Assembly (NCBI RefSeq): GCF_026967985.1
Contig: NZ_JAPVBJ010000003.1
Coordinates: forward strand, 247,101-311,100
Reading direction: 5' to 3'
Length of the DNA stretch: 64,000 nucleotides
From: Modestobacter sp. VKM Ac-2984
GTDB taxonomy: Bacteria; Actinomycetota; Actinomycetes; Mycobacteriales; Geodermatophilaceae
The notes under the pieces were generated by a model. The model saw nothing but the letters and a program-made list of their open reading frames with translations. It did no database searches and was not told where the DNA came from. Position 1 is the stretch's first letter. The number at the start of each line of letters is the position of its first letter. The position numbers and the translations under genes are program-made. Positions 4,442 through 7,095 of this stretch are shown one piece after another.

Positions 4442-5620
4442 TCAGTCGCGGGCCCGCCGCCGCAGCTCCAGCCACAGCCAGCCGGCCAGGGCGACCGGGA
4501 CGGCCAGGAACCCGGTCATGGCCGGCACCGTGCCGAACGTGGAGCCCAGCCAGGCCAGCAGCAGCGGGGTGCCGAACCCGGCGTAGGCGAAGGCGTAGAA
4601 GGCGCTGTTCATCGCACCGCGGGCCTGCGGAGGCGCCAGCCGGGCGGTGAGGGTCAGCCCGGCGGTGAGGCAGAGCCCGCCCGCCCCGCCGAGCAGCGCC
4701 GCCGCGGGCAGCAGCAGCGCCTCGGACTCCCCGACGATCGCCACGACGCCGAGCACGTGCCCGACCGCGGCGAGCACCATGCCCAGCGGCGCGGCGCCCC
4801 GTTCCGCCCGCCGGCCCAGCCGGGCGGCGACCGCGCTGGCGCCCAGCGCGAGCCCGGCGACCAGCCCGGCGTAGGCGACGCCGACCCCGTCGGGGACCAC
4901 GAGCAGCGGCAGCAGGGTCGCCGCGATCGTGGGGAAGGCGAACACCCCGACGGCGGTGGGCGCCAGCACCGCCCAGAAGGGGCGGCGGGCCTCCGGGGGC
5001 AGCCCCAGCGTCAGCAGCGGGCCGCCCTGCCGGGCCTGCACGGTCTCCGGCACGGTGACGAGCGCGCCCAGCCCGACGACCAGGACGGCGACGTGCACCA
5101 GGTACGGCAGCGTCGTCGGAGCCGGGCCGTACTGGGCGAGCAGCCCGCTCATCGCCGGCGCGACCGCGAAGCCCAGCGACGTCGACACCGCGCCCCGGGT
5201 GGCCGCCGACTGCTGGCCCTCCGGGCCGGCGAGCTCCTGCAGCCAGGCGTTGGCCACCGAGAACACCACCCCGGAGACGACGCCCTGCAGCAGCCGCCCG
5301 GCGTAGAGCAGCGGCAGGTGGTCGACGGCGGGCAGGAACAGCAGCGAGACCAGGCCGGCGAGCACAGCGAACGGCAGCACCAGGGCCCGCCGGCCGAACC
5401 GGTCCGAGGCGGGCCCGGACAGGGTCACCGCGGCGATGAGGCCGATGGCGTAGCAGCCGAAGACGGCGGTGACGTCGGCGTCGGAGAGGTCCAGCGTGCG
5501 CCGGTAGACCAGCAGCAGCGGCGTGGGGATGTTCGTGCCCAGGGCGACGGTGAACAGCCCGAAGGTGAGCGCGTCGAGCTTCCGCCGCGCCGGGTCCCGC
5601 TGGAGCGTGGCCGCCGGCAT
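4442..5620 (-). CDS. MFS transporter
   Basis: A 392-residue, roughly 12-helix major facilitator protein. The loop 2-3 motif appears as GPASDRFGRRALVLP, and a hydrophobic pattern of two six-helix halves is visible. It lies 48 bases upstream of the hydrolase/P450 pair on the same strand and may be cotranscribed, which would suggest uptake or export of the compound handled by those enzymes. Its upstream side is a divergent region with an unusual hairpin. Family similarity is to YcaD/arabinose-efflux-like MFS proteins; the cargo cannot be predicted. Confidence 0.88.
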   Translation of the reverse strand: MPAATLQRDPARRKLDALTFGLFTVALGTNIPTPLLLVYRRTLDLSDADVTAVFGCYAIGLIAAVTLSGPASDRFGRRALVLPFAVLAGLVSLLFLPAVDHLPLLYAGRLLQGVVSGVVFSVANAWLQELAGPEGQQSAATRGAVSTSLGFAVAPAMSGLLAQYGPAPTTLPYLVHVAVLVVGLGALVTVPETVQARQGGPLLTLGLPPEARRPFWAVLAPTAVGVFAFPTIAATLLPLLVVPDGVGVAYAGLVAGLALGASAVAARLGRRAERGAAPLGMVLAAVGHVLGVVAIVGESEALLLPAAALLGGAGGLCLTAGLTLTARLAPPQARGAMNSAFYAFAYAGFGTPLLLAWLGSTFGTVPAMTGFLAVPVALAGWLWLELRRRARD

Positions 5621-5772
5621 CCCCGGGACGCTACCGGCCGCCGGAGGCCTGCCTCGCCCGCGCCGTACCCGGGGTCAGCCGCTGCCGACGGCGATGGGAC
5701 ATGCGGAAGATCTCGGCGTGGGCCGGCACCATTGCGCTGCCCGCCGCCAGCGCCGGCAGCTGCGGGTCGTCC

Positions 5773-5823
5773 TTGTGCGCTGAGCGGGGTCTTCGGTCCG
5801 GCGAGACCCCGCTCAGCGCACAA
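5773..5823. repeat. Perfect 20-bp inverted repeat (hairpin) in divergent intergenic region
   Basis: Arms at 5773-5792 and 5804-5823 are exact reverse complements over 20 bases, separated by an 11-base loop. The flanking genes diverge from this region, so it is not a terminator for either of them, and no T-run follows. It may be a dispersed palindromic element, a cruciform or a binding site. I did not notice a second copy in the window. Confidence 0.8.
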
Positions 5824-5856
5824 CGCCGGTCAGCTGACCAGGACCGCCCTGGCGTG

Positions 5857-5893
5857 TCGATTGACAATCGATAGGCACCAATCGAGACTCGAT
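5857..5893 (+). promoter_or_regulatory. Promoter overlaid by two palindromic operator-like sites
   Basis: A consensus -35 TTGACA (5861-5866) is followed, 17 bases later, by GAGACT (5884-5889) at the -10 position, and the ATG of the flavoprotein gene lies six bases further, suggesting a leaderless message. Two palindromes are centred on the two hexamers: TCGATTG-A-CAATCGA (5857-5871) and ATCGAG-A-CTCGAT (5881-5893), with centres 23 bases apart. A repressor bound at both would block polymerase. The regulator is not identifiable. Confidence 0.6.
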
Positions 5894-5895
5894 CA

Positions 5896-7095
5896 ATGCC
5901 GACCCGACACCGCCCGGTCCGGCCGTTTCAGGTGACACCGCGAAGCTCCCCCGGACAGGGCGCCGGGGGGCTCGCGCCCACGGAGACGGCCGACGTGCTG
6001 GTCGTCGGCGCGGGCCTGGCCGGTCTGCACACCGCCACCCAGCTCGCCCGGCGCGGTCACGACGTGCTGCTCGCCGAGCGGCGACCGAGCCTCAGCGGCG
6101 CCATCCGCACGACCGGCATCTTCGTGCGCAAGACCCTCGACGACTTCCCGCTGCCGCCGGACCGGCTCGGGCCGCCGATCCGGCGGGTGGTGCTCTACCC
6201 GCCGTCGCTGCGCCGGCCGGTGACGCTGAACAGCGCCCGGGACGAGTACCGGGTGGGGGACATGGCCGGGCTGTACCTGGCCGCCGCCCGCGCCGCGACC
6301 GACGCCGGCGTGCGGCTGGCCCTGGCCACCCGGTACCGCGGTCGGGCGGCGGGCCACGCGCTGCTGACCGGCCCGGACGGCCCGGTGCGGGTGCGCGCCC
6401 GGTTCGTCGTCGGCGCCGACGGCGCCCGCTCGGCGGTCGCCCGGGACCTGGGGCTGGACCGCAACCGGCACCTGCTGGTCGGGGGGGAGGAGGTCTTCGC
6501 CGTGCCCGGCAGCGCTGAGCCACCGGCCTTCCACTGCGTGCTCGACCCCTCCCTGGCGCCCGGCTACCTGGCCTGGGTGGTCAACGACGGGCAGCACGCC
6601 CACGTGGGCGTGGCCGGGTACCCCGACCGCTTCCCCGACGGCCTGCGCCGGGCCGTGCAGCGGTTCGGCGCGCGGGCACCCGGGCTGTCCGGCGTGGTCC
6701 GGCCCGACGACGTCGAGCTGCGCGGGGGCCCCATCCCGGTCGGGGGCCTGCTGCGCCGGATCGGCTGCCCCGACGGGCTGCTCGTGGGCGACGCCGCGGG
6801 CGCTGTCTCCCCGCTCACCGCCGGCGGGCTCGACCCCTGCCTGCGGCTGTCCGAGCACGCCGCCGACGTGCTGGACGAGGCGCTGCGGACCGGGCGGCCC
6901 GGAGCGCTGGACCGGTACGACGGCGCGGCGCTGCGCCGCAGCTTCCGCGGGCGGCTGCTGCTGCGCCGGGGGCTGGCCCAAGTCCGCACCCCGGCCATGG
7001 CGGCCGCGGCGTTCACCGCGCTGCACACCCCGCTGGGCCGGGCCGTGGCGCGGCACGTCCTCTTCGGTGACCGGTCCTTCCCGGCCCCCGGCTGA
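5896..7095 (+). CDS. FAD-dependent oxidoreductase, geranylgeranyl reductase family
   Basis: The 399-residue protein has an N-terminal Rossmann dinucleotide-binding motif VVGAGLAG (glycines at residues 38, 40 and 43), an ADGARS segment in the middle (GADGARSAVAR), and the C-terminal FAD motif GDAAGAVSPLTAGG. These are the marks of the geranylgeranyl reductase / PHBH-like flavoproteins that reduce isoprenoid double bonds or hydroxylate small molecules. About 30 unstructured residues precede the FAD domain; a GTG at 5932 is an alternative start. There is no ribosome site before the ATG, consistent with leaderless translation from the palindrome-covered promoter. The substrate is unknown; a link to isoprenoid lipids or carotenoids is possible but unproven. 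Confidence 0.85.
   Translation: MPTRHRPVRPFQVTPRSSPGQGAGGLAPTETADVLVVGAGLAGLHTATQLARRGHDVLLAERRPSLSGAIRTTGIFVRKTLDDFPLPPDRLGPPIRRVVLYPPSLRRPVTLNSARDEYRVGDMAGLYLAAARAATDAGVRLALATRYRGRAAGHALLTGPDGPVRVRARFVVGADGARSAVARDLGLDRNRHLLVGGEEVFAVPGSAEPPAFHCVLDPSLAPGYLAWVVNDGQHAHVGVAGYPDRFPDGLRRAVQRFGARAPGLSGVVRPDDVELRGGPIPVGGLLRRIGCPDGLLVGDAAGAVSPLTAGGLDPCLRLSEHAADVLDEALRTGRPGALDRYDGAALRRSFRGRLLLRRGLAQVRTPAMAAAAFTALHTPLGRAVARHVLFGDRSFPAPG

Follow-up and report, generated by a model that had tools for sequence, protein, structure and literature searches.

The promoter of a FAD oxidoreductase gene of Modestobacter sp. VKM Ac-2984, located in the 64,000-nucleotide stretch of DNA that was analysed (hereafter the window), is, on comparative sequence evidence, a real, conserved twin-operator promoter. 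We found the same box, i.e., two operators overlying a promoter of fixed geometry, ahead of related genes in many Actinomycetota, where it co-occurs with a gene pair encoding a DUF2975 membrane protein and a small helix-turn-helix (HTH) protein of the HTH_26 type, and a second copy precedes such a pair in the same genome. Very probably, the window promoter belongs to a small regulon governed by this DUF2975-HTH_26 module, in which the HTH protein would repress its own operon and, in trans, the reductase gene.

From these observations we infer the following mechanism. Dimers of the HTH_26 protein would bind to the two operators, which are expected to lie on the same helix face because they are spaced by 21 bp. 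Operator 1 would cover the -35 and operator 2 the -10 and the start point of a leaderless promoter; since the operators overlie all three elements, the bound protein would act by keeping RNA polymerase out, at the window reductase as well as at its own operon. The DUF2975 protein would be the likely signal input, lifting repression on a membrane or envelope cue, as it contains hydrophobic segments and is encoded together with the repressor; its role as a sensor is a guess. In many relatives the reductase, an exporter and the regulator belong to one operon behind one box; in the lineage of the window the reductase is located separately and has a box to itself.

The original prediction described two perfect palindromes centred on the -35 and -10 hexamers of a leaderless promoter. 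When the window was re-read, the palindrome arms, their centres, the hexamers, the 17-base spacer and the six bases separating the -10 from the ATG were all correct to the base (Table 1). The proposed layout, a dimer bound twice, also retains its leaderless arrangement, its paired operators at a distance of two helical turns and a position that suits repression; what had to be revised is the left operator, which is better centred on 5866 than on 5864, so that the operators are 21 and not 23 bp apart. The perfect palindromes did not hold as a definition of the site. Among 54 distinct related boxes the left palindrome is perfect in two and the right one in three, and both are perfect in a single box, that of the window; their joint perfection seems largely an accident of the window. 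In an ungapped score that counts 22 positions of two 15-bp operators placed at a distance of 21 bp, the window operator pair reaches 21/22.

Table 1. Features of the window promoter region (window coordinates) and of the candidate regulator locus (contig C16 of the same genome, G000)
Feature	Position	Strand	Remarks
MFS transporter gene, divergent	4442..5620	-	PF07690
Hairpin	5773-5823		Between MFS gene and box
Left perfect palindrome TCGATTGACAATCGA	5857-5871		7-bp arms, centre A 5864; overlaps operator 1, shifted by 2 bp
Predicted operator 1 GATTGACAATCGATA	5859..5873	+	[TG]AT[CT]GA-N3-TCGATA, centre 5866
-35 hexamer TTGACA	5861-5866	+	Inside operator 1
Predicted operator 2 AATCGAGACTCGATC	5880..5894	+	Same motif, centre 5887; last base one before start codon
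Right perfect palindrome ATCGAGACTCGAT	5881-5893		6-bp arms, centre A 5887 = operator 2 centre
-10 hexamer GAGACT	5884-5889	+	GAnAnT type; inside operator 2
FAD oxidoreductase gene, geranylgeranyl-reductase-like	5896..7095	+	399 aa, probably leaderless; Pfam FAD_binding_3
DUF2975-HTH_26 gene pair	G000:C16:192.8-193.6 kb		PF11188, PF13443; behind second own-genome box
HTH gene of the pair	G000:C16:193372-193608		81 aa

Taken alone, the palindrome pair of the window is close to chance and not clearly above it: pairs of perfect odd palindromes (arms of at least 7 and at least 6, centres 13-30 apart) numbered two in the window, whereas 40 first-order Markov sequences averaged 0.43 such pairs and had two at most. 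These weak window statistics, together with the joint perfection in 1/54 boxes, are what would speak for mere chance symmetry over an ordinary promoter, a reading that we regard as extremely improbable and that, as a sole explanation, conflicts with what the comparison of genomes shows. With up to two mismatches allowed, the box TTGACnnTCGATnG-N8-CGAnnnTCGAT was present in 56 of 112 family genomes and its reversed-pattern control in none of the 112, while a wider pattern that admits either of the promoter types described below (one mismatch) matched 76 of the 394 genomes of the class, with a single control match seen.

Within the genome of the window, the scan at up to two mismatches returned two boxes, ahead of the window reductase and ahead of the regulator on contig C16, and no control match. 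The genome-wide search suggested by the original prediction thus brought up a second box, located in front of a DUF2975-HTH pair, and at the stringency used the genome would hold a two-site predicted regulon. Recovery of the second box depends on the query. The class pattern (one mismatch) detected only the window site in this genome, and the perfect-palindrome query TCGATTGNCAATCGA, which was set aside, yielded at up to two mismatches the site in the window plus three poor matches; both missed the regulator box. A looser scan (up to three mismatches) recovered it along with one control match, and also matched a site that looks unrelated, CCGCTTGACGATCCATAG, in four copies, each about 70 bases or less from a contig end.

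The claim that the regulator is not in the neighbourhood was right as far as the surroundings of the window gene are concerned; a DUF2975-HTH_26 pair, however, is encoded behind the second box. The window box is located on contig C15 at 253 kb of 584 kb and the regulator box on C16 at 193 kb of 384 kb, and since both sit well inside their contigs, the two loci are truly apart. The HTH gene was the single match in this genome at E ≤1 (85% identical) when the HTH protein of a related operon was used as a query. Its product matches PF13443 (Cro/C1 HTH_26) with E 3e-21 and 75.9 bits (cut-off 22), and its start codon overlaps the stop codon of the DUF2975 gene, the product of which is hydrophobic, with three or more hydrophobic stretches. 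The regulator box reads TTGACT-17-GATCGT-6-ATG and precedes the DUF2975 gene, 0.5 kb upstream of the HTH gene; the spacing between its -35, -10 and ATG is the same as in the window, and its operator pair scores only 18/22. The sole NCBIfam match of the HTH protein was VanU (NF000090), with 25.8 and 24.6 bits, which is below the curated cut-off of 150 for VanU proper. In the PDB, it matched only 3tyr (E 0.0029), which we take to be the structure of VanUg. With good confidence, the regulator missing from the window can be named as the putative repressor of this module, its HTH protein. At two loci whose HTH proteins are 57 and 53% identical to it (L119, L120), two ATCGANNNTCGAT words were found upstream, 35 bp apart instead of 21.

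We found that the box is mostly positioned ahead of genes for a DUF2975 membrane protein and a small Cro/C1-type HTH_26 regulator, often followed by those for an ABC exporter and the reductase. The family scan listed 68 distinct places (70 rows, two of which repeat a place on the opposite strand), of which 13 are within the genus and 55 outside it. Among the 39 extra-genus sites that were read, the box precedes a DUF2975-HTH pair in 32, the reductase alone in two (G101 and G102, whose DUF2975-HTH boxes are counted among the 32) and a small membrane protein in five. Similarly, 27 of the 30 class sites read, which are part of the list, adjoin DUF2975-HTH, two precede the reductase alone (the window and L209) and one lies by neither; at L184 the genes and the matching box are on different strands. 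Palindromes with short half-sites are common to many regulator families, and the box could in principle be bound by another factor, e.g., of the PadR, ArsR or TetR type, and merely travel with the operon. We consider this unlikely, as 27/30 class sites adjoin the module, some of them without a reductase in the 3-kb stretch, and both loci carry a box in the split genomes read. A PadR-type operator was also tried and rejected: in the passages of the repressor paper examined, the word CTATCGA occurs only in cloning primers.

The five sites with a small membrane protein (L151, L152, L153, L154 and L155, about 1 kb in) belong to five genomes of two other genera (g2, g4). By eye, the box precedes there a conserved two-helix protein of about 55 aa with the core GEADDSPGLQGLGVLL (GEGDDSPGLQGIGLLM in L151), and at L153 and L155 a frame of 13-15 codons lies between the two, opened by the ATG past the box. 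The protein is a possible further member of the predicted regulon in those genera. We do not claim it as a further target for the window: within the genus, it is absent from the window's own genome and present in 4/23 genomes, at four loci devoid of a box (best operator-pair scores 11-15 of 22).

The window reductase is related to the geranylgeranyl reductase family TIGR02032 without belonging to it under that model, since it scores 119 bits (E 3.1e-34) where the curated cut-off is 158.8. Its nearest PDB structure is 3oz2, a digeranylgeranylglycerophospholipid reductase (E 2e-22), and its nearest named orthologue is that of Modestobacter caceresii (91% identical). Of 80 relatives found, 65 were tested and 15 dropped (L065-L069, L072-L081; other phyla or cut-off matches). 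Conservation upstream of orthologues, which the original prediction called for, was indeed observed: operator-pair scores, based on a consensus derived partly from the same loci, are bimodal, with 46/65 loci at 17/22 or more and 19 at 14 or less, and the reversed-sequence control does not exceed 15. All 37 loci with an HTH gene upstream of the reductase score at least 17. The other nine high scorers comprise seven with the reductase right behind the box (L002, L010, L011, L021, L022, L028, L031), one in which the exporter comes first (L035) and one weak case (L039). M. caceresii and Micromonospora sp. RP3T carry the same words ahead of the reductase, Streptomyces a variant form, and the reductase ATG is found at the identical place past the box in L002, L105, L106 and L010. 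At most other boxed loci, the box lies 0.7-2.6 kb upstream and heads an operon of the order DUF2975 - HTH_26 - (ABC ATPase - permease) - reductase. The best operator pair of L038 is in a shifted register. The 19 loci missing the box belong mostly to Nonomuraea and Micromonosporaceae. By eye, many box-less loci of Nonomuraea, Dactylosporangium and their kin (L048-L064, except for L054) share a different conserved stretch upstream, GTGGAGGTAnCGGGCGG...TAGCGTCG...ATGCAGACAGTGGA, which may be a leaderless promoter as well, under a separate regulator.

The reductase and the HTH gene tend to occur in the same genomes. Within the genus sample of 23 genomes, all seven with the reductase possess the HTH gene (at least 85% identical), and of the 16 without the reductase three have an HTH relative (75, 57, and 53%). 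Two of the seven encode reductase and regulator in one cluster behind a single box; in the other five, the genes are located on different contigs with a box at each, so that the same operators recur at a second promoter in trans, as for the window. Separate boxed loci were also found in G101, G102, Micromonospora sp. RP3T and four Streptomyces genomes, and in the six genomes of L010, L011, L021, L022, L028 and L039, where a reductase box stands apart, an HTH gene with its own box is present elsewhere (6/6). Cellulomonas (L039) combines a poor B-like box (17/22) at the reductase with an A-type box at the HTH gene (types described below), and its HTH match contains one in-frame TGA. A quick reductase tree of 71 rows (40 of 68 inner branches open; L209 not included) comprised 13 rows with a box attached without an adjacent regulator, 38 linked, 18 box-less and two other. 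When the rows were scored as split or linked, leaving out L039, L035 and the 18 box-less ones, the split state required four changes, two of them forced by well-supported branches; some of the four could be re-joinings.

In the boxes of the window type (A-type), a leaderless layout of TTGAC, 17 bp, GAnnnT, 6-7 nt and ATG/GTG is seen in 52/54 cases, and because of this it represents a property of the family and not of the window gene alone. The first ATG or GTG follows 2-3 nt past the box in 52/54 (ATG 43, GTG 9), and with a start codon 6-7 nt past the -10 a ribosome-binding site would not fit. Column conservation has to be read as partly circular, since TTGAC, TCGAT, G, CGA and TCGAT were set by the search pattern: the -35 columns T, T, G, A and C (54, 51, 54, 54 and 51 of 54 boxes) are pattern-fixed at up to two mismatches, as is GAnnnT 17 bp past TTGAC. 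Columns free of the pattern include C at -3 (51/54), A at -1 (48/54) and A at +12 (43/54), as well as the start codon. Position 4 of the -10, likewise not fixed by the pattern, is A in 31/54 and nevertheless coincides with the centre of operator 2. In 51/54 A-type boxes one half-site has C changed to T, which yields the -35 TTGAC, so that the same bases serve as operator and as -35.

Symmetry cannot separate the two possible centres of the left operator, as the mean pairing in A-type boxes is 0.63 for 5864 and 0.63 for 5866. We prefer 5866 because in the promoters of Streptomyces and Georgenia (B-type) operator 1 is typically CTATCGANNNTCGATAG in that register. Operator 2 of the B-type is likewise 21 bp from operator 1. 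The B-type promoter words, TTGCCN-17-TAGNTT by eye, are placed about 12 bp further upstream relative to the operators, and a ribosome-binding-site-like stretch precedes the gene.

These placings bear on the direction of regulation. The same operators and regulator might also work the other way, with HTH_26 activating, or repressing its own promoter and activating the reductase. We hold activation to be improbable. The operators overlie the -35, -10 and start instead of the stretch upstream of the -35, the -35 is near consensus, and even in the shifted Streptomyces-type promoter they still overlie the spacer, -10 and start; as both placings leave the operators over the promoter, repression fits better. 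In the passages considered, VanUG represses both of its promoters (PMC4405338).

The divergent MFS gene is separated from the box by about 235 bp in the window (5621-5856), by a long gap in L106 as well and, by eye, by about 30 bp in L002 and L105. In the latter two, it has a leaderless-looking TAGCGT-7-ATG of its own, the -35 of which would fall near operator 1; where the intergenic region is short, as in these relatives, it is a possible second predicted target of the box. In the window, the gap contains a long, near-perfect hairpin (DNA fold -28.8 kcal/mol, z -7.5). Hairpin-like palindromes occur at a few further sites of the genome, two of them on contig C20 and a partial one on C3, and the hairpin looks like a small repeated palindromic element.

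Dimers of lambda CI occupy neighbouring operators overlying a -35 and -10. The proposed system resembles it in the use of dimers on two adjacent operators over a promoter and differs in protein family, spacing and switch logic. The closest studied relative of the predicted regulator appears to be VanUG of the Enterococcus faecalis vanG operon, a small regulator described as repressing its own promoter and a second one, with a footprint of two adjacent 14-bp imperfect palindromes that overlaps the -35 and reaches +10 at higher concentration (PMC4405338). Paired adjacent palindromes over the -35, at the regulator's own promoter and at a second one, are common to both systems, here as read from sequence alone. 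Unlike the window system, VanUG works beside a two-component system, targets a resistance operon and has a start codon 22 bp past the transcription start, whereas the window layout is leaderless; the passages considered mention no DUF2975 partner (PMC4405338). Two palindromes over the regulator's own promoter, the arrangement of the VanUG kind, were found here ahead of the DUF2975-HTH pair in the own genome and next to such a pair at 27/30 class sites read.

We take yozG and yoaS to be neighbours and YoaS to be a DUF2975 protein. An Xre gene beside a YoaS-like membrane protein was noted as a recurrent pair by Makarova et al., who set such pairs aside from toxin-antitoxin systems on the ground that type II systems were not known to include a membrane component, and whose reply to a reviewer leaves Xre-membrane pairs open (PMC2701414). 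We likewise do not retain a toxin-antitoxin reading of DUF2975-Xre. The YozG/YoaS pair is like DUF2975-HTH_26 in joining an Xre-family gene to a membrane protein gene and unlike it in that the passages considered give no operator or target (PMC2701414). The boxes described here come from Actinomycetota, the sole group pattern-searched. The cppC-cppD genes of the pentaminomycin cluster of S. cacaoi, also an actinobacterium, encode a DUF2975 protein followed by an HTH protein, the same order as in the C16 module, and no function or operator is given for them in the source table (PMC7827011). The passages considered of PMC4326333 and PMC12565409 contained nothing on a DUF2975-HTH system, and no description of an operator or of a DUF2975 function was found in the open-licence literature searched.

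The DUF2975 protein and its HTH partner are thus recurrent in Actinomycetota and almost absent from the open-licence literature searched, in which 2 of 5.39 million papers contain the word DUF2975, the one passage considered merely listing it. This family now has a predicted operator, a promoter geometry and a first set of putative targets, and the predictions can be tested with a single purified protein of 81 aa. In several lineages the genes of the operon are found at separate loci, each with an operator pair, and the occurrence of two kinds of promoter over the same conserved operators represents promoter turnover under a fixed regulator. As a tentative and rather speculative picture, DUF2975-HTH_26 may be a widespread two-part membrane sensor-repressor of Actinomycetota, in which DUF2975 would read the membrane or isoprenoid/lipid state and release its HTH partner from a fixed twin operator that controls an ABC exporter together with a FAD reductase acting on lipids or isoprenoids. 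Breakup of the operon would copy the operator with each piece, so that the regulon would grow by fission, and the promoter would slide (A-type, B-type) on an unchanging operator pair.
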